A stretch of DNA of 64,000 bases from Bacteroidaceae bacterium (lineage in GTDB: Bacteria > Bacteroidota > Bacteroidia > Bacteroidales > Bacteroidaceae): contig JAGBTN010000018.1 in assembly GCA_017631315.1 (NCBI GenBank), positions 187,555 to 251,554 of the forward strand. The letters run 5' to 3'. Position 1 is the stretch's first letter. Each line of letters opens with the position of its first letter. Below, piece by piece: positions 1,351-56,165 of this stretch. The translations under genes and the position numbers were made by a program. The notes beneath the pieces are model-generated. The model had not been told where the DNA came from, made no database searches, and worked only from the letters and a program-made list of their open reading frames with translations.

Positions 1351-1436
1351 AAACATCACGTGTTAAGTCGGGTAACTTAACGTGTTAAGATGGCCAACTA
1401 AGCGTGTTAAGTTGGGCAATTAAACAGTAGTTGTTT
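1351..1436 (+). repeat. 22-bp dyad repeat array A
   Basis: Three tandem units whose central CGTG starts at 1359, 1381 and 1403, exactly 22 bp apart. A decayed fourth unit follows at 1425 (CAGT). Units read roughly CTTAACGTGTTAAG plus TNGGGCAA. The left end AAACAT and right end AACAGTAGTTGTTTT resemble the ends of array E at 35893-35981. It lies between two divergent genes and overlaps neither promoter. Confidence 0.9.
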
Positions 1437-1696
1437 TCTGGAACCTCTCTGCTTATTGCATACCTATAAATGTCTTTTTGTCAACTTTAGAAAAAAATTT
1501 TTTATTATGGGGTTGACAAAACGGCTATATCCGGGTATATATATAAGGGGGACTAAAAGGGGGAAACTATTAAAGGGGGATTAACCTCGAGGAGAAAAAA
1601 ATAGTCTGTTTTCCTCTTGAGGTTAATATTATCAGGTGATATATTTCTCCCTTGAGGTATAATAGCCTGCGAACACAGAAAAATTGAAATCAGATA

Positions 1697-1728
1697 TTTG
1701 GGAATTTGAATTAACCTTCGTACCTTTG
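1697..1728 (+). promoter_or_regulatory. Promoter of the glycosyltransferase gene, leaderless or nearly so
   Basis: TTTG (1697-1700), a 20-bp spacer and TACCTTTG (1721-1728) match the Bacteroidetes sigma consensus perfectly. The start codon at 1737 is only 8 bp beyond the -7 box, so transcription should begin within a few bases of the ATG. The glycosyltransferase fold begins at the very N-terminus, so a later start is unlikely. Confidence 0.8.
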
Positions 1729-1736
1729 CTTCACTT

Positions 1737-2621
1737 ATGACACCGCTCATCTCTTTTGTCGTTACATATTACAACGAGCCCTATGCTTTGCTGCGTGCTT
1801 GCATAGAGAGTATTCTTGCGCTGAATCTTTCGCCGGATGAGGCTGAGATATTGGTGGTGCAAGATGGAGTTGAGCATAAGATTCAGGACAAGGTCTGCTC
1901 CCTTTCTCCTCTTGTGGGTTATGTCTGTCAGGAGCATGCCGGGCTGTCGGTGGCTCGCAATACCGGCATATCTTGCTCGCACGGGAGATACATTCAGTTC
2001 GTCGATGCCGACGATTGCCTGGAACCGTTGGCTTATGCAGCAGTGTTAGAACATTTGCGTAGCCAGGAAGATGATGCCGTAATGTTTAGGATGACAACAA
2101 AACAAGGCGAGAAAAGCAGACGACTATCTGCCAGACAGACAACGGGGAAAGACTTCCTGTTGCGACACAATCTGCGTGCAGCAGCATGGGGCTATGCCTT
2201 CAGACGGGACATTCTGGGCAATCTGCGTTTTTCTCCAGGCCTTTTGCACGAGGACGAACTCTTTACTCCCCAACTCCTCTTACGCGTAAAATCGTTTCGC
2301 CTGCTTGATGCGAAGGCATATTTTTATCGTCAGCGAGAGGGGACCATCACGCATGCAAAGTCTCTCGAAATGGTAAAGAAAAGACTTGACGACATCTTTT
2401 CAATCATCATGACACTGCGTTCTTTGGAACAACCTTTGCTCAGCAGGCGTATTAGACAACTGACTGTTGACTATATTCAGAACACTTGGATGCTGACGCG
2501 GAGCCATAGCGAATTACAGCAACGTTGTTCTCAACTTCGCAGCGAAGGCCTCTTGCCATTGCCTATACGTATGTATTCTTTGCGCTATTTCCTTGCTTCG
2601 GTCGTTACCTCGTTGCTATAG
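1737..2621 (+). CDS. Family 2 glycosyltransferase
   Basis: A 294-residue GT-A fold glycosyltransferase, expected to transfer a sugar from a nucleotide donor during surface polysaccharide or glycan synthesis. It begins with the typical beta strand ISFVVTYYNEP. The motifs AGLSVARNTGI near residue 75 and QFVDADDCLEP near residue 90 (the DxD metal and nucleotide-sugar site) are present. No membrane segment is evident. The gene stands alone and converges on the Crp-like gene with a 16-bp gap. Donor and acceptor cannot be read from sequence. Confidence 0.88.
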   Translation: MTPLISFVVTYYNEPYALLRACIESILALNLSPDEAEILVVQDGVEHKIQDKVCSLSPLVGYVCQEHAGLSVARNTGISCSHGRYIQFVDADDCLEPLAYAAVLEHLRSQEDDAVMFRMTTKQGEKSRRLSARQTTGKDFLLRHNLRAAAWGYAFRRDILGNLRFSPGLLHEDELFTPQLLLRVKSFRLLDAKAYFYRQREGTITHAKSLEMVKKRLDDIFSIIMTLRSLEQPLLSRRIRQLTVDYIQNTWMLTRSHSELQQRCSQLRSEGLLPLPIRMYSLRYFLASVVTSLL

Positions 2622-2637
2622 GGATATCCTATGTCCT

Positions 2638-3324
2638 TCATGGGCGGCTAAGGATGCACTTCCTGATGTCATGGATGACGAACTTCCCCCTTCCCAGGCG
2701 TATCAATTCTTCTTCCTGCCAACGGTTTAAGAGTCGCGACACGGTGAGTCGTGTTTCTCCAATGTAACGTGCCAAATCGTCCATTAGTATGTGGATTTCA
2801 ACCTCCCCATCACAGTCAACAAAAACTCTTTCGAGGAACAATCGCAGGCGGTCTTCAGGATTGTTGAGTTGCAGAGGACGTAGTGCAGCATCTCTCTTCT
2901 GTGCTGTGGCCGAAAGTAAGTTCAATAGATTGAGCCTGAAGACATCGTTTTTCATTAAATGGCTTCCGATAAATGTCTTACGTATGGCCAGGATTTTAAT
3001 GTCGCTCTTCGCAGTGTAGGTGTGTTTGTATGTGGGTGTAAGGCCGAAGAGCCTGTCTGCTTCTATGACGGCAGGAGCCTGTATGTACGAGTGTAACGTA
3101 TAGTTCCCCTCAGCAGAACAATGTTCTCTGTGTAATTCACCTTCCACAAGAAAGAGTAGATGGCTGCAATGCTCGCCTTGCCGTATGAGTGGTATGTGCG
3201 AGGCTGGCAATTCGTCGGGGAAGAGTTTCAGGGCATCTTCCCATCCGAGAAGTTCTGTGCTGCTAACACCTCTGAATAGCGGAAGTTGGGTAAGCAGAGC
3301 ATATCGTGTGCTGAGGTCGTGCAT
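2638..3324 (-). CDS. Crp/Fnr-family transcription regulator
   Basis: 228 residues. The N-terminal half has the cyclic-nucleotide-binding-like fold (HIPLIRQGEHCSHLLFLVEG, about residues 42-61). The C-terminal half is a Crp-type winged helix (DDLARYIGETRLTVSRLLNR, about 182-201). There is no Fnr cysteine cluster, so an oxygen-sensing iron-sulfur centre is unlikely; the effector is unknown. It is the last gene of the minus-strand run starting at 7078, 11 bp after apbE, so it may be made together with the envelope genes upstream. Such regulators often act on anaerobic or stress genes in Bacteroidales, which is inference here. Confidence 0.88.
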   Translation of the reverse strand: MHDLSTRYALLTQLPLFRGVSSTELLGWEDALKLFPDELPASHIPLIRQGEHCSHLLFLVEGELHREHCSAEGNYTLHSYIQAPAVIEADRLFGLTPTYKHTYTAKSDIKILAIRKTFIGSHLMKNDVFRLNLLNLLSATAQKRDAALRPLQLNNPEDRLRLFLERVFVDCDGEVEIHILMDDLARYIGETRLTVSRLLNRWQEEELIRLGRGKFVIHDIRKCILSRP

Positions 3325-3335
3325 CCTGTTCCTCG

Positions 3336-4364
3336 CTATCTGACAATAAGCCTGTCAAAACCTTTTGATGCCCATGTTTGGTAGTTCCCCTTCTCGTTGG
3401 AATAAATGAAGTAGGCATCAAGCTGGCTTTGCTCCAGGAGCACTTGTTTCGCTTTCTCCATTCCCATCACCATGAATGCAGTGGCAAAAGCATCTGCTTC
3501 TGCGCAAGTGGGAGCAACGACAGTGCTTGAAAGAATGTCCTGTTGGGCAGGATAGCCAGTCTTAGGATTGATGGTATGTGCAATCTTTTTCCCGTCTTTC
3601 ACATAGAAGTTTCGATAGTTTCCACTGGTGGCAATGGCATGACCGGAAAGTGATACAATGTCTTGTAATTCTGTGTTGTATGAGGTAGAGTCTTCGTTCG
3701 GCTTGTTAATGCCTATGCGCCAAGACGCCCCCTTCTCGTTTATGCCTTCGGCAACAACTTCTCCGCCAATCTCAACCATAAAGTTTGTGATACTGTAACC
3801 ACGTAGCAATTGGGCAATTCGGTCGACTCCATATCCTTTCGCTATTGCACTCATGTCGAGAATGGAAAGCGGGTTGTCTTTGGTGACCTTGCCGTCTTGG
3901 AAGTGTATGCTCGAGAGCCCGACCAGATTAAGAAGGCTGTCAACCTGTGTGCTGTTGGGCAACTGTCCTTTTTTAAATCCAAATCCCCAGGCATTGACCA
4001 ATGGCGCAACCGTAGGGTCGAAGGCGCCGTCGGTGGCTCGGTTGACAGCAAAAGAGAGTTGCAGTACTTCTGCCAACATGCTGTCAGCAGTGTTGCTTTC
4101 ACCTTTGTTGATGAGGCTGATGGTGCTTTGGGGATTGAACATTGAGAGCGAAGCGTCAACACGATGCAGTTCTGCCTCGATTTCAGTCTTCAAATCTTTG
4201 TTGTAAAGATATTTGACATGATAGATTGTACCGAAAGTTGTGCCTTCGTTGTGGATGTATATGTAGCTCGATGGACGTTCGTTGCTATTCGACTTTTTCA
4301 GATAAGAAAAGCCAACGATAGCAATGATGGTAAGCACTGCAAGAAGTAATTTCCGTTTGTTCAT
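3336..4364 (-). CDS. apbE: FAD:protein FMN transferase (ApbE family)
   Basis: 342 residues. ApbE enzymes use FAD to attach FMN covalently to threonines, for example on Rnf and Nqr subunits. Visible family motifs are FDPTVAPLVNAWGFG (about 115-130), MSAIAKGYGVDRIA (about 170), EIGGEVVAEG, IATSGNYRNF, HTINPKTGYP and CAEADAFATAFMVMG. An N-terminal hydrophobic segment (LLLAVLTIIAIVGF) without a lipobox suggests a membrane-anchored enzyme facing the periplasm. It sits 13 bp after DUF6048 and 11 bp before the regulator. No Rnf or Nqr genes lie in this window. Confidence 0.93.
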   Translation of the reverse strand: MNKRKLLLAVLTIIAIVGFSYLKKSNSNERPSSYIYIHNEGTTFGTIYHVKYLYNKDLKTEIEAELHRVDASLSMFNPQSTISLINKGESNTADSMLAEVLQLSFAVNRATDGAFDPTVAPLVNAWGFGFKKGQLPNSTQVDSLLNLVGLSSIHFQDGKVTKDNPLSILDMSAIAKGYGVDRIAQLLRGYSITNFMVEIGGEVVAEGINEKGASWRIGINKPNEDSTSYNTELQDIVSLSGHAIATSGNYRNFYVKDGKKIAHTINPKTGYPAQQDILSSTVVAPTCAEADAFATAFMVMGMEKAKQVLLEQSQLDAYFIYSNEKGNYQTWASKGFDRLIVR

Positions 4365-4377
4365 GGTTTGTTACTCT

Positions 4378-5064
4378 CTAATTGTTGCTTTTTGCTTTTT
4401 TTGATGTTTTGCCCACGTCAAAGATGAGGTTTACTGTGCCACCCCAGCCGTTGTCATTATTCTTGCCGAATCCTGGGATATAATAAGGTGCAATCTCTTC
4501 TTCGTGGCTTAATGCGAGTCGGAATTTGTAGCGCATGCTCCACCCCAGACGAATGAAACGCCATAACTTCGTTTCCAGGCCAACACCGAATTCCAGCCAA
4601 TGTCCTGTAGCATTCAGTCCGTTTAACTCCAACGGCGTTGTCGTGCCATACGCAGGGTCGGTAAAGGCTTTGTTTTCGATGTCGTAATTGAAACTGCTGA
4701 AGCCATATCGAAGGATGCCAAAGAGCCTGTTTCCGTTGTGTTTCTTGTTGAAATTGTAATCAAGGCCAAAGCGCATATACGGAGCCGTTGTGCTGAAGAT
4801 ATTACCAGTTTCTGCACCTTCTCTGTGGCTGCTGCCAATACCGAGTTCGGCAATGGGGAAGACTTTGTCGTACAGATTAAGTCGTGCTGCCACTTCCATA
4901 TTGGCAAACTTGGCTCCCATGGCTTTCATGGCAAGGCCAACAAGGTCTGCACTGACGGCAATGCCACTCAGCAGAGGAGCTTTCTCTTTCTCTTGTGGTT
5001 CTTGTGCTTGCATGGGAACGCATAGCAGGATGGCCAGGAGAATGGACAATACTCTTTGTTTCAT
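4378..5064 (-). CDS. DUF6048-type outer-membrane-like protein
   Basis: 228 residues from the start chosen here (MKQRVLSILLAILLCVPMQAQ), which gives a clean signal peptide; an upstream in-frame ATG at 5109 would spoil it and overlap the previous gene. The rest is rich in alternating hydrophobic and aromatic strands (MRFGLDYNF, LFGILRYGFSSFNY, WLEFGVGLETKLW), as in small beta barrels. It follows the DUF6452 gene by 7 bp, a pairing common in Bacteroidales. Function unknown; the DUF name is from memory of the family. Confidence 0.75.
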   Translation of the reverse strand: MKQRVLSILLAILLCVPMQAQEPQEKEKAPLLSGIAVSADLVGLAMKAMGAKFANMEVAARLNLYDKVFPIAELGIGSSHREGAETGNIFSTTAPYMRFGLDYNFNKKHNGNRLFGILRYGFSSFNYDIENKAFTDPAYGTTTPLELNGLNATGHWLEFGVGLETKLWRFIRLGWSMRYKFRLALSHEEEIAPYYIPGFGKNNDNGWGGTVNLIFDVGKTSKKAKSNN

Positions 5065-5071
5065 GAGGCGG

Positions 5072-5545
5072 TCAGAACAAATGTATTTGCAGATTTGTGG
5101 TAAGTTCATAATTCACGGACGAGCGAACGACGGTAATGGACTTGATGATTTCGTTGGTTGAACGAACGTCCTGTATGGTGTGGAAGAGTGTAGCAGGGCA
5201 GTCGGGCGACTCGAAGTGAACCTGATTGCTCTTCTTTATCCAAACGGTGTCGCGTATGAGGTATTCTTCGTTATCCTGGTTTTTCCCCTGGATGTGGAAG
5301 ACAAGAGTGTCTTCGTCTTGCCAATAACTCAGGGGAAGATTTAGTTTGGATGTATTTACAGAACGATTGAGCAGAACCGGGCCTGCTTTGCCTGCGGTGA
5401 TGGTAAGTGTGTCTTCGATAGAGACGGCTACTCCTTCGCGGTCGAATGCACCATACATTCCTACATAGTTGTTGAGCGTACAGTCGTAGCTCTCGCAGGC
5501 AACAAAGAGTATGCTTAGCAATATGACGAGGAGCCGATGCTTCAT
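5072..5545 (-). CDS. DUF6452-type lipoprotein
   Basis: 157 residues beginning MKHRLLVILLSILFVACES, a signal peptide with lipobox FVAC, so an envelope lipoprotein. Its ATG (5545-5543) overlaps the stop of the upstream glycosyltransferase gene by 4 bp (ATGA), indicating translational coupling; this supports the short start over the long upstream extension. The body is predicted mostly beta (SIEDTLTITAG, WQDEDTLVFHIQGK). It probably works with the DUF6048 protein that follows. No enzyme motif is seen. Confidence 0.75.
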   Translation of the reverse strand: MKHRLLVILLSILFVACESYDCTLNNYVGMYGAFDREGVAVSIEDTLTITAGKAGPVLLNRSVNTSKLNLPLSYWQDEDTLVFHIQGKNQDNEEYLIRDTVWIKKSNQVHFESPDCPATLFHTIQDVRSTNEIIKSITVVRSSVNYELTTNLQIHLF

Positions 5546-6504
5546 ATTTCTTTTTCTATCTGATAGTTGTTGCGTTCCGGTGCATTGCGGCTGACGAGTT
5601 CTCCGAGGAAGCCTGCCACGAAGAGCTGTGTGCCTAATATCATCATAGTCAATGCAATGTAGAAGTACGGGCTGTCGGTAACGAGGGGATGGGGAATGCC
5701 TGTTGCGAGGCAATAAAGTTTAGTGCCGCCTACAACCATTACAGACAGGAAGCCGATGAAGAACATCAGTGTGCCGATGAAGCCGAAGACATGCATCGGT
5801 TTCAGTCCGAAGTTGGTCAGGAACCAAAGTGATAGCAGATCAAGGTAGCCGTTTACGAAACGATTGAGCCCCATGAACTTCGATTTGCCGAACTTGCGTG
5901 CCTGGTGGCGAACTCTCTTCTCTCCGATGTTGGCAAAGCCTGCGTTCTTGGCGAGATAAGGAATGTAGCGGTGCATCTCTCCATAGACTTCGATGTTCTT
6001 TACGACTTCTTTGCGATAGGCTTTCAGTCCGCAGTTGAAGTCGTGCAGGTTATGTATGCCGCTCACTTGCCTTGCTGTGGCGTTGAAGAGTTTTGTGGGA
6101 ATCGTCTTCGACAGTGGGTCGCCTTTGCTTCGGTTCATTTTGTATCCGCTCACAAGGTCGTATCCGTCTTCTGTTATCATGCGATAGAGTTCCGGTATTT
6201 CGTCGGGAGAGTCTTGCAGGTCGGCATCCATTGTGATGACGACGTTGCCTTGTGCTGCTTTGAAGCCGCAGTACAGGGCCGGGCTTTTGCCGTAGTTGCG
6301 ACGGAACTTGATGCCGTGTACGGTGTCGGGGTTCTCTTTTTGGAGTTCTTCGATGACTTCCCACGAGCGGTCGGTGCTGCCGTCGTTGACGAAGATGACT
6401 TCGTATGAGAGGTTGTGCGACGTTGCAACGCGCTTTATCCAGTTGAAGAGTTCGGGTAGCGATTCGTCTTCGTTGAACAGGGGAACGACAATGCTTATAT
6501 CCAT
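5542..6504 (-). CDS. Polyprenol-phosphate glycosyltransferase (DPM1/GtrB-like)
   Basis: 320 residues. The N-terminal GT-A domain has VPLFNEDESLPEL, VNDGSTDRSWEVI and the metal-binding MDADLQDSPDEI near residue 95. The C-terminal part has two strong membrane helices (about 230-260 and 275-300). This is the layout of enzymes that load glucose, mannose or similar sugars onto undecaprenyl phosphate at the inner face of the membrane. It pairs with the DUF4199 gene 22 bp upstream, a common Bacteroidetes arrangement. The sugar cannot be specified. Confidence 0.9.
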   Translation of the reverse strand: MDISIVVPLFNEDESLPELFNWIKRVATSHNLSYEVIFVNDGSTDRSWEVIEELQKENPDTVHGIKFRRNYGKSPALYCGFKAAQGNVVITMDADLQDSPDEIPELYRMITEDGYDLVSGYKMNRSKGDPLSKTIPTKLFNATARQVSGIHNLHDFNCGLKAYRKEVVKNIEVYGEMHRYIPYLAKNAGFANIGEKRVRHQARKFGKSKFMGLNRFVNGYLDLLSLWFLTNFGLKPMHVFGFIGTLMFFIGFLSVMVVGGTKLYCLATGIPHPLVTDSPYFYIALTMMILGTQLFVAGFLGELVSRNAPERNNYQIEKEI

Positions 6505-6526
6505 AGTGTTATTTGCGTTTGGTCAT

Positions 6527-7078
6527 TTATTGTTTTTCGTTTTTTCCTTCTTCCTTTTCTGTGCGGGGGGCTTTTACGGGAAGTGCTGCAAGCAGCGAGA
6601 GGGGGAGTGCCAGCATGATGTTATATGTTGCCAGTTGCATCATGATGTCTCTGACGGTCATTTGCTGAATCATCTTTTGCATCTCTTCCAGATTGGCCTC
6701 CGGCATTATCTGTTGCCATGCTTCGCGGTACTCTTCGCTTTGCATGGTGGTGCTTAGGAGTGAGAGCAGACGCCCGTTGTCGAGGAAGAGGAAATAGAGG
6801 TATTGCGCTGCATCGGTCAGCAGTCCTGCCAGCAGACACACTACGAACGACAGGCGGAAGACATGCAGCCAACTTGTCGAGGGGAAGAGTTTGCGGTAGT
6901 TTGCCAGTTGTTTGTAGAGCACGAAGATGCTGAAGACGCCCAGGGCGGAACTCAGCATCGAGAGTGCCGGGCGGTCGTATCCGTACATTGTGCAGAAGAA
7001 ACTGGCCGCCCACATGATGCCTATGGGCAGAGCCATCCAGTTGGCAGCGTCTATGAGTGATGGTTTTGTTTTTGTCAT
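6527..7078 (-). CDS. DUF4199 membrane protein
   Basis: 183 residues with about four hydrophobic segments: near residues 15-30 (GIMWAASFFCTMYGY), 38-55, 75-97 (SFVVCLLAGLLTDAAQYLYF) and 150-168. Between the third and fourth lies a charged helical stretch (MPEANLEEMQKMIQQM). The C-terminus is strongly charged (RTEKEEGKNEKQ). DUF4199 proteins are small integral membrane proteins of unknown role, usually beside a DPM1-like glycosyltransferase as here. First gene of the minus-strand unit ending at 2638. Confidence 0.82.
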   Translation of the reverse strand: MTKTKPSLIDAANWMALPIGIMWAASFFCTMYGYDRPALSMLSSALGVFSIFVLYKQLANYRKLFPSTSWLHVFRLSFVVCLLAGLLTDAAQYLYFLFLDNGRLLSLLSTTMQSEEYREAWQQIMPEANLEEMQKMIQQMTVRDIMMQLATYNIMLALPLSLLAALPVKAPRTEKEEGKNEKQ

Positions 7079-7101
7079 TATGCGTTACGCTAAAGAATGC
7101 G

Positions 7102-7109
7102 CAAAGTTA
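7102..7109 (-). promoter_or_regulatory. Probable -7 box for the DUF4199 to Crp operon
   Basis: TAACTTTG on the minus strand fits TAnnTTTG, and the ATG at 7078 would be about 20 nt from the predicted start point. No good TTTG lies at the expected distance, so the assignment rests on the -7 box alone. Confidence 0.45.
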
Positions 7110-7205
7110 CGGAATAATAATATAAATAATGTATAAAGAGACGAAAAAAACGTCTTGGGAGAATAATTTTCGCTTATTCGCTTTTTATTTTCCATTAAAT
7201 TGTTG

Positions 7206-7213: not shown

Positions 7214-7225
7214 CAGTCGCAAAAT

Positions 7226-7321
7226 GGGAAAGTCCTATACGGCATGCTCCTTGTGAATCCCCCAGGGCTTGATCGCAGCAAGGGCAGCAGGTCGTAGCGG
7301 CGCGATATAGTAAGCTTTCCC
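7226..7321 (+). ncRNA. ffs: Signal recognition particle RNA (4.5S type)
   Basis: The stretch around GTGAATCCCCCAGGGC and GCAGCAAGGGCAG (about 7250-7290) is the conserved helix-8 region of bacterial SRP RNA that binds Ffh: the internal loop is CAGG on one side and AGCA on the other. The ends GGGAAAG (7226-7232) and CTTTCCC (7315-7321) are complementary, and CTATA/TATAG pairs further in, giving the expected single long hairpin of about 96 nt. The apical part between CAGG and AGCA reads GCTTGATCGC rather than the usual GGAA/GNRA-capped stem. tRNA-Thr follows after 4 nt, so both probably come from one transcript. Confidence 0.85.
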
Positions 7322-7325
7322 TCCC

Positions 7326-7402
7326 GCCTCTTTAGCTCAGTTGGCCAGAGCACGTGATTTGTAATCTCGGGGTCGTTGGTTCGAATCCGACAAGAGGCTC
7401 CA
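7326..7402 (+). tRNA. tRNA-Thr (anticodon TGT)
   Basis: A full cloverleaf: acceptor GCCTCTT/AAGAGGC, D arm GCTC/GAGC, T arm GTTGG/CCGAC with loop TTCGAAT, and an encoded CCA end. The anticodon loop TTTGTAA gives TGT, reading ACA. The anticodon stem CGTGA/TCTCG has one T-T mismatch. It is processed from the same transcript as the SRP RNA 4 nt upstream. Confidence 0.97.
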
Positions 7403-7403
7403 G

Positions 7404-8196: not shown

Positions 8197-8282
8197 AACT
8201 ATACGTGTATAGTTGGCAAACTTAACGTGTTAAGTTTACAAAGTTAACGTGTTAAGTCGGGCAACTTAACGTGTGTCGTTTG
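8197..8282 (+). repeat. 22-bp dyad repeat array B
   Basis: Four units with CGTG starting at 8204, 8226, 8248 and 8270, each exactly 22 bp apart, beginning directly after a stop codon. The first unit has arms ACTATA/TATAGT and the second ACTTAA/TTAAGT, both perfectly complementary around the same CGTG. Orientation is +, as in all other arrays. It ends about 40 bp before the pgm -33 box. Confidence 0.95.
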
Positions 8283-8322
8283 GAGTCGATGCCTGTTGTG
8301 TTGAAAAAAGAGCCTCTTTTCT

Positions 8323-14026: not shown

Positions 14027-14148
14027 CTGCAGTCCACTTGCCCCAACGGACGCGTCCGTTGGGCAAAGTTCACGTGTGAAGTTGCCCGACTTTACGTGTG
14101 AAGTTTGCCAACTTCTCTGCAGTAAATGGCAAAGTTCTCTTGTGGCCT
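14027..14148 (+). repeat. 22-bp dyad repeat array C
   Basis: Core CGTG at 14073 and 14095. A unit with CGCG in the same phase (14051) forms a perfect 20-bp palindrome with arms CCAACGGA/TCCGTTGG, and two decayed units (CTGC 14117, CTTG 14139) keep the 22-bp phase. The arms of the 14051 unit share little sequence with the others, yet position and symmetry are kept. It lies between the FISUMP gene and the rpmE2 promoter. Confidence 0.9.
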
Positions 14149-14221
14149 GAATAATATATGGTTGCAATAGGGGCGCGGATGTTCGTTTGAATGGATATAG
14201 CATCATTTCCTTTTGGAAAAA

Positions 14222-30590: not shown

Positions 30591-30680
30591 AAACTTCACG
30601 TGTAAAGATGTCAAACTTCACGTGTAAAGATGCCCAACTTCACGTGTGTAGTTGACCGTTTTAACGTGTGTAGTTTTCAA
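30591..30680 (+). repeat. 22-bp dyad repeat array D
   Basis: Four units with CGTG starting at 30599, 30621, 30643 and 30665, exactly 22 bp apart (unit form AACTTCACGTGTAAAGATGCCC). The region beyond 30681 decays. It sits between two divergent promoters. Confidence 0.95.
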
Positions 30681-35892: not shown

Positions 35893-35981
35893 AAAACATC
35901 TACTGTTAAGTTTGCCATAAAGGCGTGCCAAGTCGGGCAGTTTAACGTGCCTTGTTGGGCAACTTAACAGTAGATGTTTTT
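35893..35981 (+). repeat. 22-bp dyad repeat array E with terminal inverted repeats
   Basis: CGTG at 35924 and 35946, with decayed units in phase at about 35902 and 35968 (CAGT). The ends are a perfect 20-bp inverted repeat AAAACATCTACTGTTAAGTT / AACTTAACAGTAGATGTTTT (35893-35912, 35961-35980), so the whole element can fold into one hairpin. It lies between convergent genes and could end transcription from both sides. Confidence 0.92.
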
Positions 35982-44494: not shown

Positions 44495-44590
44495 GACTTA
44501 ACGTGTGTGGTTGCCCGACTTAACGTGTAAAGTTTGCTGACTTAACGTGTGTAGTTTGCTGACTTAACGTGAGTAATTGGCCGAACATAC
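44495..44590 (+). repeat. 22-bp dyad repeat array F
   Basis: Four units with CGTG at 44502, 44524, 44546 and 44568, exactly 22 bp apart (unit form ACTTAACGTGTGTAGTTTGCTG). Orientation + although both flanking genes are on the minus strand. Confidence 0.95.
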
Positions 44591-49900: not shown

Positions 49901-50365
49901 GTTGTCGTAAGTGATGTATGGGTTTTCCATGTCAACCCAGTAGCCCATCTTATGGCTGAGGTCGGCCCACTCGTTGGTGTACATCATGACATTTTCTCGG
50001 CATTTTTGGTTGTAGTCTTCAATGCTGATGGTCTTGCCGATGTCTTCCTTTGTGATGCCCAGTTCTTTTTCCACGCTGAGTTCAACGGGAAGTCCGTGGG
50101 TATCCCATCCCGCTTTACGCTTTACTTGGAACCCTTTCATTGTCTTGAATCGACAAAAGGTGTCCTTGAGGCTTCGTGCCAAAACGTGGTGAATGCCTGG
50201 ATGTCCGTTGGCAGATGGGGGGCCTTCGAAGAAAATAAACGAGGGACATCCTTCTCGCTCGGTTATGCTCTTGTGAAACACGTCTTCTGCATCCCATTGC
50301 TGGAGCACTTCTTTGTTCACGTCGCTCAGGTTGAGCTTATTGCGCTCTGTGAATTTCTTGCTCAT
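46955..50365 (-). CDS. ileS: Isoleucyl-tRNA synthetase
   Basis: 1136 residues from MSKKFTERNKLNLSDVNKEV; the extra 15 residues of an upstream ATG (50410) overlap the promoter. The HIGH motif appears as SANGHPGIHHVLARS near residue 50 and KMSKRLGNAIDPFG carries KMSKS. The editing domain follows WTTTPWTLPSNTALC. The length and layout match the long IleRS type of Bacteroidetes. First gene of the operon ileS-dksA-like-lspA-DUF4296-54 aa. Confidence 0.98.
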   Translation of the reverse strand: MSKKFTERNKLNLSDVNKEVLQQWDAEDVFHKSITEREGCPSFIFFEGPPSANGHPGIHHVLARSLKDTFCRFKTMKGFQVKRKAGWDTHGLPVELSVEKELGITKEDIGKTISIEDYNQKCRENVMMYTNEWADLSHKMGYWVDMENPYITYDNKYIESLWWLLKQLYQKDLLYKGYTIQPYSPAAGTGLSSHELNQPGCYRDVKDTTVTAQFKVTDTNLNIPNAQNTPTYVLAWTTTPWTLPSNTALCVGPKIDYVAVKGTNPYTDEQAIYILAEARLSAYFQAEEGKELEILWKGKGTDLVGTKYEQLFPWVKPCDLDNGKVIDKSGDAFRVIPGDYVTTEDGTGIVHIAPTFGADDAKVAKDAGIPSLFIIDKAGGTRPMVDFTGKYFLKEDMDETFRQLCINEEAYAIHEGNYVKNAYDPKFNEDGKYDEKAASKEMDLNVKMCIEMKEAGTAFKIEKHVHNYPHCWRTDKPILYYPLDSWFIRSSAAKERMIELNKTILWKPESTGTGRFGKWLENLNDWNLSRSRYWGTPLPIWRNRDTKEEICIGSVEELYNEIEKAVEAGIMTSNPLKDKGFVLGDMSQENYDRIDLHRPYVDHIMLVSESGAVMKRELDLIDVWFDSGAMPYAQIHYPFENKELLDNGTVFPADFIAEGVDQTRGWFYTLHAIATMVFDNVSYKAVISNGLVLDKNGMKMSKRLGNAIDPFGAIEQYGSDAVRWYMITNSAPWDNLKFDVEGVQEVSRTFFGKLFQTYSFLTMYANVDGWCYEEPDVPMNERPEMDRWILSCLNSLIREVNQCYESYEPTRAGRLIQTFVVDNISNWFVRLSKKRFWGSAMSLDKLSAYQTLYTCLEKVAQLMAPIAPYYADRLWRDLCETTGKGDAKSVHLAKFPIADETMIDLEQEQRMALAQQVTSMILSLRKKEQIVVKQPLQRIAIPAIDANQQQRILAMQQLILDEVNVKELEFVEAQGMLVKQVKCNFRTMGKKFGKLMKSVNAAVLAMSQEQIAELEATEHLPLTLETGEQVVVDLEDIEIFSQDIPGWSVANEGTLTVALDLTITEDLRLEGIARELIRSIQTLRKESGFDITDRINVTLPENDDNRTCLNKFSDYIASQVLANEISLGTKLTVTKL

Positions 50366-50399
50366 ATAGTGTGTGTTGTATATATACTTGTTTGGGGTG

Positions 50400-50430
50400 C
50401 AAAGGTACAATAAATAATTAAATATTCAAA
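50400..50430 (-). promoter_or_regulatory. ileS operon promoter
   Basis: On the minus strand TTTG (50427-50430), a 19-bp spacer and TACCTTTG (50400-50407). Leader about 30 nt. Confidence 0.85.
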
Positions 50431-50444
50431 ATGTATAAAAGAAA

Positions 50445-50474
50445 AAGCCGTCCGAAAGGAAAATCGGACGGCTT
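50445..50474 (-). terminator. Terminator of the FadL-type porin gene
   Basis: An 11-bp stem AAGCCGTCCGA/TCGGACGGCTT with an 8-nt loop, followed on the minus strand by TTTTTCTTTT. It lies 125 bp after the gene stop, so array G is in the 3' untranslated region. Confidence 0.88.
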
Positions 50475-50492
50475 GTTGTGTGATGAAGTCTC

Positions 50493-50600
50493 AAACTTCT
50501 CACGTTTAGTGGGTGAACTTCACGTGTGTAATTAGCGAACTTCACGTGTGTAATTGGCGAACTTCACGTGTTAAGTTTGCCAAATACTCACTTGTGTTTT
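50493..50600 (+). repeat. 22-bp dyad repeat array G
   Basis: CGTG at 50523, 50545 and 50567 (22-bp steps). A variant CACG-TTT unit precedes (50503) and a decayed unit follows (about 50589). Unit form AACTTCACGTGTGTAATTGGCG. Orientation +, opposite to the gene whose 3' untranslated region it occupies; the right end touches the stop codon of that gene. Confidence 0.92.
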
Positions 50601-52063
50601 TAGAACTTGAGGTCTACGCTGACACCAACGGCATCGTTCTTGCGAGTGTAGAGGTCTACAATACCAAGCTTCTCGTCGCGGATAATCTCTGTTTCGTTGT
50701 AGAAGCTGTGCATGTAGCCAGCGTTGATGTTCACCATCTTGTTTACGTGGAATGTAGCGCCAAGGCAGAGGGCAGTTGAACTAACATTGAAGTTTGTGTC
50801 CTGCATGCTTTGGCCGAAACCGTACTTTGTGCGCTGTGTGCCGGCACTGACTGTGAGCCAGTTGTTTACGTCCCATTCTGCACCGAGTGTTACTTCCCAT
50901 GTGTTCTTCTCTACGTCTGTAGCAGAACCCTTGGCGTCCTTGTCGAAGAAGTAGTGGAAACCACCCATTACGCGGACGTTGTCGAGGATAGAATACTGTG
51001 CACCCAAAGTCAGCAGAGCAGGAATGTCAGAGCGAACTTCTGCACCATCAGCATATACGGCAACAGCAGGAACTTGAGAAGCCATTGCAGTGAGATTTGC
51101 GCTGTTGACAGATTCATTCTTTAAGTTAATCTTTGTGCGGAACTCATACTTGGCAGCCAAGTTCAACTTGCCAAGGTTTACGTCAACACCAATGATAGGA
51201 GTGATGCCCAAACCGCTCTGTGAGCAGTCGAGTGTAAGAGGGTCATTAAAGAGATATGCACCCTGTGCTGCAGTAGTAGCAGCATCTTTATAAGCAGCAG
51301 CCATAGCCTGATATTTAGCAGCTTCAGTTGTCAGACCAGCAGCAGCGTATTGACCAGCAGCAGCGGCAGCTTGACCAGCAGCACTGGCAGCCATTTGAGA
51401 AACTCCATTCAAATATGTGCTTGCAGCCACACCATTTGCAGTAACATTAGAAATGGCGCCTACATAAGAACTGTTTGCCAAAACGCCACGTACACCACCG
51501 AATACAGAAATCTTGTCAGTAACCTTGTAGGTTGCACCTACCTGGAGACCATAGAAATACTGTTTGCCGGTAAGGTTTTGGCTCAAACCATAAGATGTAG
51601 CATTAGCGCCAAGCAACTTGCTGCCTACCAATTGCTCAAACATGGGCAGACCGTTCTCGAACTCGCACTTGCCGCCGCCACCGCCAACAGCAAACTGGGC
51701 AGAAACGCTCCACTTGTCGTTGAATACATAGGCTGCCTGGAATGAAGGAATGAAGGGAGCAACAGCTTTGCCTTCAAAGAAGTGCTCAGCATTGTTGTTT
51801 TCGGTGTTGAGCGCATAGAAAGGTGCATTAGAAGTGATTTGACGCTTCTGGATGGCACTCTGCCAGCTCAGTGAAAGATGGAATCCCTTGGGGAGGAATG
51901 CGATACCTGCAGGGTTGGAGTAAACACCGTCGATGGCAATTACTGCATCACGAGCAGGGTTGCGAAGGAATACGGCGTTCTGATTAGTGTTGGTTAAAAG
52001 ACCACCGGCAAATGCGCTGCTAACTGTGGCAAATGCCATCAAACTAAGGATTGTTTTTTTCAT
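50600..52063 (-). CDS. OmpP1/FadL-family outer membrane transporter
   Basis: 487 residues from MKKTILSLMAFATVSSAFAG with signal peptide. TNTNQNAVFLRNPARDAVIA replaces the NPA region typical of FadL N-termini, followed by SNPAGIAFLPKGFHLSLSWQ. Many amphipathic strands and a terminal aromatic residue (VSVDLKF) indicate a 14-strand barrel. A long alanine-rich insertion (about 235-275, AAGQAAAAAGQYAAAGLTTE) is unusual and probably a periplasmic or surface helix. The family imports hydrophobic compounds such as fatty acids. Confidence 0.9.
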   Translation of the reverse strand: MKKTILSLMAFATVSSAFAGGLLTNTNQNAVFLRNPARDAVIAIDGVYSNPAGIAFLPKGFHLSLSWQSAIQKRQITSNAPFYALNTENNNAEHFFEGKAVAPFIPSFQAAYVFNDKWSVSAQFAVGGGGGKCEFENGLPMFEQLVGSKLLGANATSYGLSQNLTGKQYFYGLQVGATYKVTDKISVFGGVRGVLANSSYVGAISNVTANGVAASTYLNGVSQMAASAAGQAAAAAGQYAAAGLTTEAAKYQAMAAAYKDAATTAAQGAYLFNDPLTLDCSQSGLGITPIIGVDVNLGKLNLAAKYEFRTKINLKNESVNSANLTAMASQVPAVAVYADGAEVRSDIPALLTLGAQYSILDNVRVMGGFHYFFDKDAKGSATDVEKNTWEVTLGAEWDVNNWLTVSAGTQRTKYGFGQSMQDTNFNVSSTALCLGATFHVNKMVNINAGYMHSFYNETEIIRDEKLGIVDLYTRKNDAVGVSVDLKF

Positions 52064-52093
52064 TATTTTTACCTTTTTGGTTGAAATCGGCCG

Positions 52094-52125
52094 CAAAGGT
52101 AACACAATAATCCCATCTGTGCAAG
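52094..52125 (-). promoter_or_regulatory. Promoter of the FadL-type gene
   Basis: On the minus strand CTTG (52122-52125), a 20-bp spacer and TACCTTTG (52094-52101). Confidence 0.75.
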
Positions 52126-52170
52126 TTTTTTCTTAAAAAATGCACACAATATAGGTATTTTGTGCAATTA

Positions 52171-53478
52171 TTATTGACCAGCGAGGGTGTAGATGGTCTT
52201 TAGTCCTTTTATCTTTAGTCCTTTTATGCGATTGAGCAAATCGCGTGAGACGGCACGTTTGACGGCAACATAAGACCAATGTGGCAGGACGTCTATTCTG
52301 CCAATTTGGCTGCTTTCGATGTTTCCTTGTTTTGTTAGGAAGCCCACAATGTCTCCGCGACTTATTTTATCTTTCTTTCCTTTACCTATATATAATGTAA
52401 CCCAAAGTGGCTTTTCTGGTGCGGGGACTTTTGTGGGCAAGGTGTAGGTTTCGATTTCGTCGGTAATGAATTCGGGCAGGTGTTCTTGTGGTGCGAGGAT
52501 GAAATAGGCTGAGCCTTTCGTGTCCCATCGTGCTGTTCTGCCGTTGCGGTGTGTGGATGTTTCTTCGTTAGGCGGCAGGTGGTAGTGTATGATGTTGTCG
52601 ACGTCTGTGATGTCGAGCCCTCGTGATGCGAGGTCTGTGCTGACGAGGATGTTTGCCGAGCCATTCATGAAACGGTAGAGTGCTCTTTCTCGGTCGCGTT
52701 GTTCCATGCCTCCGTGGAAGATACCTGCCATTATGTTGTGCTCTTCGAGGAAGTTTCCTACGCGTTCCACGCTTTCTCTGTAGCCTACGAAGATGAGGCT
52801 TTTCTGTGTGCCAAGTGTGCCGAGCAGTTTGCGAAGTGTCTGCAGTTTGTCTTTTTCGGGCGAATGGACTATGTGGAGGCTGATGCGTTCGTCGCTTTCG
52901 TTGTCGAGGAAGTTGAGTCGGGTATAGTTGTTGCTTCCTACGAAGTCGGGAATGTCGTCGGTGTCTGTGGCAGAGAGGAGGATGCGTTGCTGCAGGTGGG
53001 GTAGTAGGGTGATGATGCCTTGCATCTGTTCGCGGAAGCCGAGTTCGAGTGATTTGTCGAATTCGTCGATGACGAGTGTTTGTACGTTATCGGGGAGGAG
53101 ATTGCCTTTCTGCAGGTGGTCGAGCAGTCTGCCGGGTGTTGCTACCACGAGTTGTGGCTGCAGTCCTCTTATTTGCTGATGTTCCTCCATGGTTGGCCGT
53201 CCTCCGTAGCAGGCAGCGACGCGCAGTTCGGAACAGAGTCTTCGTGCAACGTCGGCTGTTTGTGTGGCGAGTTCTCGTGAAGGAACAATGACGAGTGCTT
53301 GCAGGTTGTCGTTTTTAGCGTCGAGTTTTTGGAGTAGTGGCAGCAGGTATGCGAGTGTCTTGCCGGAGCCAGTGGGGCTGAGCAGTACAGTGGATGTTCC
53401 TTTGCGTGCCGTTTGCAACATTTCTTGTTGCATGGCGTTGAGGTCGGTGATGCCGAGTCGGGAGAGGTTGTAGGTCAT
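52171..53478 (-). CDS. DEAD-box RNA helicase, DbpA-like
   Basis: 435 residues from MTYNLSRLGITDLNAMQQEM. Motifs: SPTGSGKTLAYLLPLLQ (Walker A), VIDEFDKSLELG (motif II as DEFD), LSATDTDD (SAT) and NGRTARWDTKGSAY (motif VI variant). The C-terminal 75 residues (LYIGKGKKDKISRGDIVGFL) resemble the DbpA RNA-binding domain, which targets 23S rRNA in E. coli. A further upstream ATG (53535) lies within nhaD. The start is 1 bp after the nhaD stop, so the two are cotranscribed. Confidence 0.92.
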   Translation of the reverse strand: MTYNLSRLGITDLNAMQQEMLQTARKGTSTVLLSPTGSGKTLAYLLPLLQKLDAKNDNLQALVIVPSRELATQTADVARRLCSELRVAACYGGRPTMEEHQQIRGLQPQLVVATPGRLLDHLQKGNLLPDNVQTLVIDEFDKSLELGFREQMQGIITLLPHLQQRILLSATDTDDIPDFVGSNNYTRLNFLDNESDERISLHIVHSPEKDKLQTLRKLLGTLGTQKSLIFVGYRESVERVGNFLEEHNIMAGIFHGGMEQRDRERALYRFMNGSANILVSTDLASRGLDITDVDNIIHYHLPPNEETSTHRNGRTARWDTKGSAYFILAPQEHLPEFITDEIETYTLPTKVPAPEKPLWVTLYIGKGKKDKISRGDIVGFLTKQGNIESSQIGRIDVLPHWSYVAVKRAVSRDLLNRIKGLKIKGLKTIYTLAGQ

Positions 53479-53479
53479 G

Positions 53480-54883
53480 TTATCTGAGGAAGTAGTCGAC
53501 GAGGAAGTAGATGCCCAAGGCGACGAACCAGCCAAGGAGTACTTTGAGTGTGATGTGCTTGATGTACCACCAGATGCTTACATCTTCGGCTTTCATGAGT
53601 GCGTAGCCTGCTGTGTTGCCTATGGGGAGCAGGCATCCGCCTATGCTGCCGCTCAAGGTGATGAGATGCCAGTATTGTCCGTTTTCCACGAAACTTTGCA
53701 GGTAGGTGGTCATGCCCGGTGTGTTGTCGGGGAGGACGGGGTAGATGGAGATGCTGCTGATGACGAGGGCGAGATTGTCCATGACGGAACTGACGAGTCC
53801 GAGTGCGAGCGACATGATGTAGATGTTGTGTATGTGCTGGTCGCACCAGTTGCGCACGCTGTTCATGGCGCCTACTTCGATGAGGATATCCACGCAGAGT
53901 CCTACGCCGAGAAAGAACATTATCATTTGCATACTTTCGTACTGCAGGCTGCGATTTGTCTCTCTGCTGAGCGGTTGGTCGGACAGGATGCGTTTGCGGT
54001 TGATGATTTCGTTTGCCACCCAAAGAACGCCGAGCACGCAGAGTGCACCGAGGAATGGGGGCAGGCTTGTGAGTCGGTAGAATGTGGGAACGAACCATAG
54101 TCCGCCCATGCCCAAGAAGAACATGAGTATCTGTTGCCAGAGTTTTACGTCGGTGTCATTGCCTCTGTACATCATGACGTTGGCACGTTTCAGGTCGAGA
54201 TGCGGGGGGAGTTTTCTGCCGATGAGGTATGTGGGTACGATGGTGGCGAAGAGTGCCGGCAGTACGAGCGCTGCTGTGTAGTTGGTGGGTGTGACTGCTC
54301 CGCGTGTCCATACGAGCAGTGATGTGACGTCGCCTATGACGGTGAAGCATCCTCCACAGTTTGTGGCGATGACGATGATGGCTCCCAGCAGCATGCGTTG
54401 CCTGTGGTTTACCACCAGGCGGTTCATTACCGTGAACATTACGACGGCAGCGGTGAGGTTGTCGAGGTTGGCACTGAGCAGGAAACTGCACAGGGCAAGC
54501 ATCCAGACGGTTTGCCATGTTCCTTTTGAGCGGCAGAGTTTCGTTACGAGGTCGAAGCATCCGTTGTTTGCAAGAACGTCTGTGATGGCCATTGTTGTGA
54601 GCAGATACATGGCAATGCTCGTGAGTTGTGCCACGTGGCGTGCGAAGACGTTTTGGCGTATGAACTCGTTGACGGCTTTGATGCTGTAGTCCTCGCCGGC
54701 AAGGAATTCCTGGAATCCGGCATTGTGGAGTGTCTCAATGTAGTATGGTCCTACGCAGACGTACAGCACCCATCCCCACACGCCGCAGAAGACGGCTACG
54801 GTGGCTTTGTTGATGCGGGTGATGTGTTCGGTGCAGATGAGCAGGTAGCCGAGCAGCATCAGGCAGACAATGGCTATGGTCAT
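53480..54883 (-). CDS. nhaD: NhaD-type sodium:proton antiporter
   Basis: 467 residues with about 12 membrane helices. The NhaD features are NATVAVFCGVWGWVLYVC-like first helices (KATVAVFCGVWGWVLY), LFFLGxGLCVDxLxExGA (MFFLGVGLCVDILIEVGAMN) and SSVMDNLALVISSISIYP, which carries the ion-binding Asp-Asn. It exports Na+ or Li+ in exchange for protons across the inner membrane. It leads a two-gene unit with the helicase. Confidence 0.93.
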   Translation of the reverse strand: MTIAIVCLMLLGYLLICTEHITRINKATVAVFCGVWGWVLYVCVGPYYIETLHNAGFQEFLAGEDYSIKAVNEFIRQNVFARHVAQLTSIAMYLLTTMAITDVLANNGCFDLVTKLCRSKGTWQTVWMLALCSFLLSANLDNLTAAVVMFTVMNRLVVNHRQRMLLGAIIVIATNCGGCFTVIGDVTSLLVWTRGAVTPTNYTAALVLPALFATIVPTYLIGRKLPPHLDLKRANVMMYRGNDTDVKLWQQILMFFLGMGGLWFVPTFYRLTSLPPFLGALCVLGVLWVANEIINRKRILSDQPLSRETNRSLQYESMQMIMFFLGVGLCVDILIEVGAMNSVRNWCDQHIHNIYIMSLALGLVSSVMDNLALVISSISIYPVLPDNTPGMTTYLQSFVENGQYWHLITLSGSIGGCLLPIGNTAGYALMKAEDVSIWWYIKHITLKVLLGWFVALGIYFLVDYFLR

Positions 54884-54893
54884 GTTCTTTCAG

Positions 54894-54941
54894 TTAAGAG
54901 TTCTCGTTAGGGTTAAGGTTAGGGTTAACGTTAAAGTTCCC
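54894..54941. repeat. GTTAAGAGTT / GGTTA short repeats upstream of nhaD
   Basis: GTTAAGAGTTCTCGTTAGGG followed by TTAAGGTTAGGGTTAACGTT. Several GGTTA/GTTAA copies in the nhaD leader. Shares GTTAAGAGTT (in reverse) with the repeat in the uxuA-uxaC gap. Confidence 0.55.
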
Positions 54942-54954
54942 TTTCTTTGCAGCG

Positions 54955-54986
54955 CAAAGGTAGTTAAAAATACTCAAAACGACAAG
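54955..54986 (-). promoter_or_regulatory. nhaD promoter
   Basis: On the minus strand CTTG (54983-54986), a 20-bp spacer and TACCTTTG (54955-54962). The leader of about 65 nt carries the GGTTA repeats. Confidence 0.72.
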
Positions 54987-54992
54987 CAACGC

Positions 54993-55023
54993 TTTGCTAT
55001 TTCTGGCAAAACTTGTAATTTTG
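54993..55023 (+). promoter_or_regulatory. Promoter of the 55031 gene, leaderless-looking
   Basis: TTTG (54993-54996), a 19-bp spacer and TAATTTTG (55016-55023). The ATG at 55031 is 7 bp after the box, so the predicted transcription start nearly coincides with the start codon. Confidence 0.72.
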
Positions 55024-55030
55024 CATTGTT

Positions 55031-55540
55031 ATGAAGAAAATGATAAGTTTTGTACTGCTACTTTTTGCCCTTGTGGCTAAGGCGCAGAAGGTGGAGATTT
55101 TGGTTGGCGGGAATTGGGCTGAGATTCCTGCTCAGCAGACACAGAGTGAACTGAAGCCCGGCTGGAAGATTGTGGACTACCAGATGAAGAGCAAGTTGAC
55201 GCATTATCTTTCGGGCGCTCATGCAGCGCAGTTGGCAGAAGGAAATCGTCCAGTTTTTCGTGTCACGCCAGGCGAGAAAGAAGTGCTTGTTGACTATGTG
55301 CTTGTGCGGCTGAAGACGTCGAAGTATTACCGGAAGATGTTCAAGCCGTTGTTGATTGAGTGCAACTATACTCGTTTGGAACCCAGTGCGTTCGATGTTA
55401 AAGCCGAAAGTGATAGTTTTATATGTCAGCCTCGCCAGGTGTTGCAGCCTGGAGAGTACATTTTGGCTTGCCTCACACAACGTCCCATCGGCGAGTTGCA
55501 AGACATACTTGTCTATCCCTTCAGTGTGGCAAAAGAGTAG
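55031..55540 (+). CDS. Secreted protein of unknown function
   Basis: 169 residues with a signal peptide (MKKMISFVLLLFALVAKAQ). The mature part is predicted mostly beta, with segments such as RPVFRVTPGEKEVLVDYVLV and QPGEYILACLTQ that suggest a small periplasmic beta sandwich. No cysteine motif or catalytic signature. I do not recognise the family. The promoter is immediately upstream. The stop codon directly abuts a 17-bp inverted repeat. Confidence 0.75.
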   Translation: MKKMISFVLLLFALVAKAQKVEILVGGNWAEIPAQQTQSELKPGWKIVDYQMKSKLTHYLSGAHAAQLAEGNRPVFRVTPGEKEVLVDYVLVRLKTSKYYRKMFKPLLIECNYTRLEPSAFDVKAESDSFICQPRQVLQPGEYILACLTQRPIGELQDILVYPFSVAKE

Positions 55541-56165
55541 ATTTGCTTACATTTTGTCACTTTCAAAGTGGACCGATTTTCGGCGCAAATAGATAAAACA
55601 AGCGTCGAAACAGGTCGGTTTGTCACCTGAAACAGGAGTACTTTCTCAACTACACGTGTGAAGTTTGCCAACGATACACGTGTAGTTTGGTATTTTTACA
55701 TGTTAAAATCGTTCGAAAAACACATAAAATATACCTGTTTTGTGTTGTTTTTCTCTCGTTTTTGCGTGGTTTTACGATTGTTGAAAAATGTAATATGCTT
55801 ATCTGTAGTGTGTTATGATAATGCTTCCAAAATGCGATAGAAACAGCCCTCCGCAGTGTCGCTTCATTTTATTCAATTCTCAGCGCTTGGGAAAAATACA
55901 AAATGTAAGCAAATAAGGCATTATCCTAACAAAGTGTCAAAACAGGAAGGAACAAGTCAATTAGAGAGAGGAGGTTTTCTCTTGCTTTCTTTCTTCGCCC
56001 ATTACACCAAAGAAACATAAAACGAGATAGAATGGCAAACAGCCCAATAAGTCGCTTATGATAATTCCTTTCCATGTAGGGTGATTCTTTTTTACAAAGG
56101 AAACCATCAAAAATGTTTCGTTTATAAACTTTTCTTTGTATCTTTGTGCCACAATAAATAAGCAA
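55541..56165. other. Intergenic region with an inverted-repeat-bounded element
   Basis: No convincing gene. ATTTGCTTACATTTTGT (55541-55557) and its exact reverse complement (55898-55914) bound a 374-bp segment containing array H. Beyond it lie AT-rich sequence and a -7 box TATCTTTG (56139-56146) for the DMP19-like gene, with only a partial TTT at the -33 position. Confidence 0.65.
55648..55710 (+). repeat. 22-bp dyad repeat array H
   Basis: CGTG at 55655 and 55679 and a CATG variant at 55699, spaced 24 and 20 bp, so less regular than the others. The unit form AACTACACGTGTGAAGTTTGCC is the same family and orientation. Confidence 0.85.

Follow-up and report, generated by a model that had tools for sequence, protein, structure and literature searches.

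Mutually exclusive intergenic arrays with a 22-bp pitch in the genome of a Bacteroidaceae bacterium

A 64,000-nucleotide stretch of contig JAGBTN010000018.1 from an uncultured Bacteroidaceae bacterium of the gut (assembly GCA_017631315.1; this stretch is hereafter called the window) carries short tandem arrays of a near-palindromic unit between its genes. We found that these arrays belong to a genome-wide set in which several sequence families share an exact 22-bp pitch, an intergenic placement and a mutual exclusion below about 5 kb, and that in a related species the arrays have kept their positions and their units have turned over in concert. Our preferred reading, which we hold tentatively and at slightly below an even chance, is that the arrays are phased, mutually redundant binding sites of a putative chromosome-organising protein, drifting by concerted turnover.

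Each array in the window has two to five units, contiguous and exactly 22 bp apart. A unit is made of an 8-bp half-site, an asymmetric 2-bp centre (GT), a second 8-bp half-site and a 4-bp spacer, and its consensus has the feet RACTT/AAGTY and the spacer NGCC. The arrays are as follows.

Array A, 1352..1439, forward strand: three CGTG units and one degenerate unit with a CAGT centre.
Array B, 8197..8284, forward strand: four CGTG units, with CGTG at 8204, 8226, 8248 and 8270.
Array C, 14044..14153, forward strand: a CGCG-centred unit, two CGTG units, one CTGC unit and one degenerate unit, all in one 22-bp register.
Array D, 30592..30679, forward strand: four CGTG units, with CGTG at 30599, 30621, 30643 and 30665.
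Array E, 35895..35978, no strand assigned: four units forming one long inverted repeat, with CGTG in the two inner units; one end reads AACATCTA-CT-GTTAAGTT and the other AACTTAAC-AG-TAGATGTT.
Array F, 44495..44582, forward strand: four CGTG units, with CGTG at 44502, 44524, 44546 and 44568.
Array G, 50494..50581, forward strand: one degenerate unit and three CGTG units.
Array H, 55648..55713, forward strand: one CGTG unit, one CACG-type unit and one degenerate unit.
Ninth array, 63564..63635, no strand assigned: a member of a third, GGTTAACC-type family, with period 22, 3.3 copies and the repeat TTAACCATTATTGCAGGAAAGG according to Tandem Repeats Finder (TRF).

The original prediction, made from the letters of the window, described eight 22-bp arrays of CGTG tandems. 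All eight are present, although the third starts near 14044 and not at 14027, and the ninth array had been overlooked; arrays E and H have just two clear CGTG or CACG units each. The CGTG positions given for arrays B, D and F, which step by exactly 22 bp, match the sequence. The notion of a fixed CGTG centre had to be abandoned, since units with CTGC, CACG, TGCA-type or GGTTAACC centres follow the same pitch, at times within one array. With a position weight matrix of the unit, built from the window together with 30 loci of this genome, 48 matches in the window (both strands counted) scored above 9 and 46 of them above 14, at seven of the eight sites; 20 order-2 Markov copies of the window had 0-5 matches above 9 each. 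Array E (site 35893) stayed below a score of 9 and was detected by TRF (score 55).

A scan of the whole genome, as had been proposed with the original prediction, showed that the arrays are not confined to the window and that their period is not random. The CGTG dimer motif had 142 matches in this genome at up to three mismatches and its reversed control had none; on contigs C16 and C19 the step from dyad to dyad was 22 in 68 of 71 cases, and 44 or 66 in the remainder. A CTGC-centred family with the same pitch and spacer had 66 matches at up to two mismatches and 85 at up to three (controls, 0). The third family, with the GGTTAACC dyad, also has period 22, and its sites are interleaved with CGTG arrays (window 63564-63635; C16:166660; C19:67358, 80406, 85689, 105509 and 163259). 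Several families share one register within array C and at C19:138755, and 72 of the 123 tandem repeats that TRF reported in 845 kb of this genome have period 22. The arrays first noticed in the window are therefore part of something larger, in which further families share the 22-bp pitch.

CGTG stands on the forward strand in all eight listed window arrays; genome-wide its dimers are mixed (64 forward, 78 reverse). The strand polarity of CGTG arrays correlates with GC skew (rho 0.45, p = 0.004) and inversely with gene direction (rho -0.36, p = 0.02), and neighbouring CGTG arrays agree in strand in 17 of 37 cases. The CGTG and CTGC families are unevenly spread over 14 contigs (50 clusters each; chi-square 49.8, permutation p = 5×10−5), in a table hand-counted among the matches listed (CGTG at up to two mismatches, CTGC at up to three) that enters five mixed arrays in both columns. 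One scanner detected 79 CGTG and CTGC arrays, most often with three units (42 arrays), followed by four (17), two and five (9 each) and six (2). Units are more alike within an array than between arrays (12.84 vs 11.01 of 18 positions). Neighbouring arrays were not clearly more alike than others, and we rejected copying from a neighbouring array on this ground. A three-unit composite, consisting of a CTCGTGAG unit, a TGCAGA unit and a CTGCAG unit, recurs in either direction on C17, C15 and C18 (loci L091, L094, L095, L097 and L100). Contig C16 also holds 13 tandem repeats of period 69 in the 845-kb set; this period is a multiple of 3 and they may be coding, with a leucine-rich repeat as a guess.

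The 22-bp pitch also emerged when no sequence motif was used. A self-similarity scan over lags 16-33 found 19 arrays at lag 22 on C16, 23 on C19 and 15 on C12, with all 57 being intergenic according to gene calls from an open-reading-frame scorer rather than an annotation, and at most two arrays per contig at any other lag. At a laxer threshold 72 of 75 lag-22 items were intergenic, and the three inside gene calls (two on C16, one on C12) were dropped. An AT-rich low-complexity stretch of the window (58525-58594), which this lax scan calls an array and which looks spurious, was kept in the lax counts, where it contributes a pair under 5 kb. A first scan, whose 39 arrays included six single units, showed no overlap with gene calls; one further item from the scan for the GGTTAACC family, at C19:53946, was flagged as overlapping such a call.

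In 347 kb from 13 relatives of the same genus, not picked for the repeat, lag 22 yielded 17 arrays, all intergenic, compared to 10 at lag 21 (8 intergenic), 8 at lag 28 (all intergenic) and 8 at lag 18 (2 intergenic). Lags 21 and 28 are multiples of a heptamer, and such intergenic repeats are also common in the genus. A second species, G102, had 16 arrays at lag 22 in 160 kb, all intergenic, followed by lag 33 with three; G011 had seven in 200 kb, again all intergenic, one of which resembles an 11-bp repeat. The array sequences of G102 and G011 are unlike those of the window, with one G102 array containing an ACACGT word. Short dyads with 5-bp arms and even centres of 0-8 nt were 2.5-3.0 times denser in the lag-22 arrays of other species than in their other intergenic DNA, and odd-centred ones 0.7-1.2 times as dense; in this comparison even centres overlap each other, and 4 of the 17 species (G005, G012, G026 and G083) carry CGTG-type or CTGC-type matches. 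The commonest 2-nt centre of these dyads was AC/GT (13 of 28). The signal of a conserved 4-nt loop between 5-bp arms was weak in these species, and we set this idea aside. Some relatives keep the 22-bp pitch with unrelated letters, so that pitch and spacing may count for more than the letters.

The distribution of the arrays along the chromosome is non-random. We pooled C16, C19 and the first 145.5 kb of C12 (omitting the C12 arrays at 181.7, 258.2 and 266.2 kb) and took as expectation a random, length-weighted choice of intergenic regions. Among 69 arrays of all families only 6 pairs were closer than 5 kb, as compared to 30.8 expected; the 5-7.5 kb bin was slightly high (28 vs 20.5) and longer distances were near expectation. 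The 66 gaps, when sorted, begin with 2078, 2396, 2398, 2893 and 4025 bp and then run 4971, 5022, 5031, 5045, 5055 and 5123 bp. Stricter detection gave 1 pair below 5 kb vs 18.3 expected (54 arrays) and 0 vs 11.1 (42 arrays), and this strict-detection exclusion was stable over all intergenic cut-offs and weightings tried. With one array per intergenic region (67 of 200 regions), 7 pairs were seen vs 28.9. Exclusion also crosses families, with a single pair below 5 kb between 15 GGTTAACC-type arrays and the 54 others where 11.1 were expected. Gaps below 5 kb numbered 1 vs 7.0 on C16, 2 vs 12.0 on C19 and 3 vs 6.7 on the whole of C12 (p = 0.03); on G023:C10 they numbered 2 vs 8.2, in a species that shares ancestry with this one and is not independent. 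The coefficient of variation (CV) of all-family spacing was low on C16, C19 and G023. Between 145 and 258 kb of C12 (loci L204 and L207) there is one array only, and of six proteins tested from this stretch four serve transfer or mobilisation (TraG, TraM, a type IV secretion system coupling protein and Mob_Pre). We count the near-absence of arrays from this conjugative stretch in favour of a chromosome-organising role.

Array positions are kept between this genome (G000) and G023, two species that are ~91% identical. In a 164-kb alignment of C19 to G023:C10 (main blocks 88-96% identical, two poor blocks removed), 18 of 20 arrays had a G023 partner within 200 bp. Two of these were placed by extrapolation over 256-345 unaligned bp, and at one of the two positions G023 carries another family; the partners of the remaining two arrays were seen in local alignments. 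Of the 21 arrays of G023, the one at C19:146210 lacks a counterpart in this genome, and the one at 152347 is matched here by a degenerate array. Within these fixed positions the units turn over in concert: unit number differs in 22-bp steps at 163252, 169420 and 188898, at 183122 every unit carries a different allele next to a left flank that is identical, and CGTG units stand opposite CTGC units at 126851. Expansion by slippage, which had been suggested as one origin of the arrays, is partly right, in that exact gains or losses of units are seen here. Core positions changed less than variable ones in 28 orthologous units (difference 0.12 vs 0.19; positions 5, 6, 13 and others so treated were taken as variable).

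At up to three mismatches the CGTG motif occurred in 10 of 49 genus genomes (this one included, and one with only two matches), but not in any of the 32 genomes examined from other families; the control had a single match in each of two genomes. A family-wide draw at up to two mismatches found the motif in 5 of 22 genus genomes and in 1 of 279 others (one match). Three adjoining 23-bp tandem repeats (L197:8037-8208, in G154 of another genus) lie near the sole CGTG dimer match found outside the genus. The CTGC type was present in 6 of 61 genus genomes, three of these with 1-3 matches. Exact matches in named genomes comprised 29 stretches, by their titles mostly ruminant-gut metagenome-assembled genomes, labelled Bacteroidaceae, Prevotellaceae or Bacteroidales.

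These results suggest a model in which an array would be a phased cluster of two to five dyad sites for a dimeric DNA-binding protein, which would occupy adjacent dyads at a distance of roughly two turns of the helix (22 bp). A single cluster would serve the surrounding DNA, and a second within ~5 kb would be redundant or harmful and would be lost or never fixed. The CGTG, CTGC and GGTTAACC families together would form one system of chromosome-organising sites. Arrays would stay in place while their units turn over by 22-bp gain or loss and by homogenisation within the array, which would let the letters drift and the pitch and spacing remain. Cooperative sites of a chromosome-organising protein had been among the roles originally proposed, and the exact pitch, intergenic placement, ~5-kb exclusion and positional conservation argue for them indirectly, although no such protein was found. 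We also count in favour of the model the distance that arrays keep from gene starts, given below, and the slower change at core positions.

Several observations weigh against this model. Besides the binding protein itself, which our searches did not identify, the regularity of spacing is lost over the whole of C12 (CV p = 0.96), and for CGTG arrays alone it is not significant by CV on C19 (p = 0.19); for these arrays CV is significant on C16 and the minimum gap on both C16 and C19. In G102 exclusion is only a trend (1 vs 3.9, p = 0.08), and G011 is too sparse for the exclusion test. Simple redundancy does not predict a sharp edge near 5.0 kb, and none of the readings considered here explains its sharpness. 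Lag 22 is not distinctive outside the genus: 205 kb of other genera of the family gave 4 arrays at lag 22 and 5 at lag 33 (baseline 1), 249 kb of other families gave 5 each at lags 22 and 16 (baseline 3), 100 kb of G097 gave 2 each at lags 22 and 16, and 50 kb of E. coli K-12 gave none at lag 22. Dyad symmetry of the whole unit was no greater in the arrays of other species than in control repeats (p < 0.05 in 8 of 47 lag-22 arrays vs 17 of 76 control-lag repeats), and we rejected such symmetry as a universal property. Finally, the arrays diverge between the two species about as other intergenic DNA does (identity 0.867 vs 0.898, with 0.857 in the 80-bp flanks and 0.819 at third codon positions of the same alignment), with more gaps (4.0% vs 1.0%).

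A bolder version, somewhat doubtful in our view, would see in this genus a chromosome-wide grid of milestones read by geometry, with a 22-bp pitch, an intergenic position and a distance of at least ~5 kb whatever the sequence. Such clusters might, for example, nucleate the binding of a nucleoid protein or bound supercoil domains, their letters turning over by concerted evolution. We lowered our estimate for it because lag 22 is not distinctive outside the genus and because lags 18 and 27, with 5 intergenic arrays each in G011, are nearly as frequent there as lag 22. Alternatively, the arrays could be neutral minisatellites, intergenic sequences without function in the cell that grow and shrink by replication slippage, the replication or repair machinery dictating the preference for 22 bp. 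The exact unit gains and losses and the homogenisation within arrays between G000 and G023 fit this well, as do an array divergence similar to that of the remaining intergenic DNA, the unrelated array sequences of other species and the greater likeness of units within an array. Slippage accounts for unit turnover, but not for exclusion below 5 kb, still less between unrelated families; nor does it predict that most arrays have 3-5 units (three or more in 70 of 79) or that core positions change more slowly. We consider neutrality unlikely.

Transposition immunity, as in Mu and Tn7, could produce exclusion near existing copies if the arrays derived from a mobile element, as minimal copies or as remnants that no longer move. 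The binding sites of MuA and TnsB are ~22 bp long, multi-unit composites such as the 1z2 type recur on several contigs, and the mean longest word common to both flanks of an array is slightly raised (3.61 vs 3.30 permuted, p = 0.02). In Mu cis-immunity, insertions are described as rising sharply around 5 kb (PMC7350765), close to the edge in our gaps. However, shared flank words of at least 6 bp, as expected of target-site duplications, were found in 3 of 79 arrays vs 2.6 permuted, with fuzzy ends that could hide very short ones; exclusion crosses sequence families; exact-pattern scans of viral contigs found neither the CGTG nor the CTGC pattern; and nearly every array is common to the two species, which implies no recent mobility. 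We regard this origin as distinctly unlikely. Long inverted ends are shared by array E (35895-35978) and C19:152347 (also in G023), whose end units form the inverted repeat AAAACATCTACTGTTAA / TTAACAGTAGATGTTTT and resemble ends of miniature inverted-repeat transposable elements (MITEs); the other arrays inspected do not show such ends.

Even less probable, to our judgement, are RNA elements, that is, transcribed stem-loops at gene 3' ends that terminate or protect transcripts. Indeed, five of the eight window arrays fold with z < -3, and in the 41 co-directional gaps of a set of 71 arrays (with 14 divergent and 16 convergent gaps) arrays lie at median distances of 59 bp from the upstream stop and 221 bp from the next start, nearer the stop in 32. 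Yet 14 of the 71 lie between divergent genes (nearer start at a median of 228 bp), the commonest unit has mismatches at inner stem positions, and over 110 units only two of seven stem pairs covary beyond shuffles (6-13, p = 0.001; 7-12, p = 0.015), so that a hairpin within the unit was rejected. A hairpin along the whole array was rejected as well, despite the five good folds, since units placed symmetrically across the array match each other no better than other pairs of units do (11.34 vs 11.44 of 18). Rfam gave five matches at gathering threshold in the window, all of them clear of the arrays, and exclusion is not predicted by such elements either. Among other features of the window are a Bacteroidales-1 (6S-like) RNA at 58279-58446 on the reverse strand, a Bacteroidales small signal recognition particle RNA at 7219-7325 on the forward strand, and tRNAs at 7326, 41559 and 62206.

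If exclusion and pitch hold in complete genomes, these gut Bacteroidales would set one type of site at a controlled minimum distance, independently of its sequence. For uncultured relatives of Prevotella-like bacteria, this would make chromosome organisation accessible to testing. It would also be a clear example of DNA elements in which geometry and not the letters is conserved, and which annotation by alignment would overlook.

In the open-access literature we recognised no report of such 22-bp arrays from titles and the beginnings of abstracts, and the known classes of repeats fit poorly, whether CRISPR, MITEs like BrickBuilt, repetitive extragenic palindromes (REP) with their REP-associated tyrosine transposase (RAYT), RNA hairpins or actively mobile elements. 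That the arrays are not CRISPRs had been rightly stated at the outset, the units being contiguous at 22 bp and without unique spacers. BrickBuilt of Porphyromonas gingivalis (PMC4596501) is a spacer-free minisatellite or MITE of 1-22.8 units of 23 nt at 19 intergenic places, with the consensus AGAYCATARTATCCTCTCRTRTG and, in most copies, leader or tail segments and terminal inverted repeats. The present arrays resemble it in their spacer-free tandem units of near-equal length at many intergenic places, in a genome of the same order; they differ in the 22-bp unit, the consensus (compared by eye), the number of units (2-6), the several interchangeable families and the pairwise exclusion, and no shared leader or tail was seen. 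REP elements and the bacterial interspersed mosaic elements (BIMEs) built from them, as well as the CGTC-tagged palindromic repeats reported also from Bacteroidetes, are likewise short, intergenic, palindromic and of high copy number; they mostly form head-to-head or tail-to-tail dimers with an unpaired tag, and the CGTC repeats seem to lack a dedicated transposase (PMC3733652). Here, by contrast, we see same-register tandems of fixed 22-bp pitch and variable sequence, with neither a GTAG nor a CGTC foot tag in the unit consensus. A search for the Y1/RAYT transposase (PF01797) came up empty for this assembly and for 7 of the 10 CGTG-bearing genus genomes (assemblies 62-89% complete), with one match each in G012, G026 and G034, and we rejected this enzyme as the mobiliser. 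A match to a transposon end, raised with the original prediction, has thus been checked in part: no target duplication of at least 6 bp and no Y1 transposase in the assembly came to light.

Regarding Mu and Tn7, the arrays share with their ends the ~22-bp sites and, with target immunity, an exclusion near 5 kb; unlike them, they show no element body or target duplication, their exclusion crosses families, and no transposase was linked to them. The Mu-type transposase domain PF09299 gave no match in 12 genomes, but none in its 14 control genomes either, so that this search does not argue against such an enzyme. The serine recombinase PF00239 was present in just three of 12 genomes (G000, G102 and G004), so that no cognate recombinase was found throughout the array-bearing genomes. 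A Noc-like ParB paralogue was not found in this assembly (86.6% complete), where PF02195 has one match only, at 137 kb of C1; with one ParB_N protein and one parS-like site in the genome, ParB/Noc sites were rejected. This protein (C1:136962-137243) and the parS-like site (C1:34581-34596) lie on one contig, on which the CTGC family prevails. Dispersed palindromic sites of the chromosome are known from matS/MatP, NBS/Noc and SBS/SlmA, where each site is single and conserved in sequence. The present arrays resemble these systems in placing many dyad sites along the chromosome, and under our preferred reading they would work likewise, but through multi-unit arrays whose sequence keeps changing.

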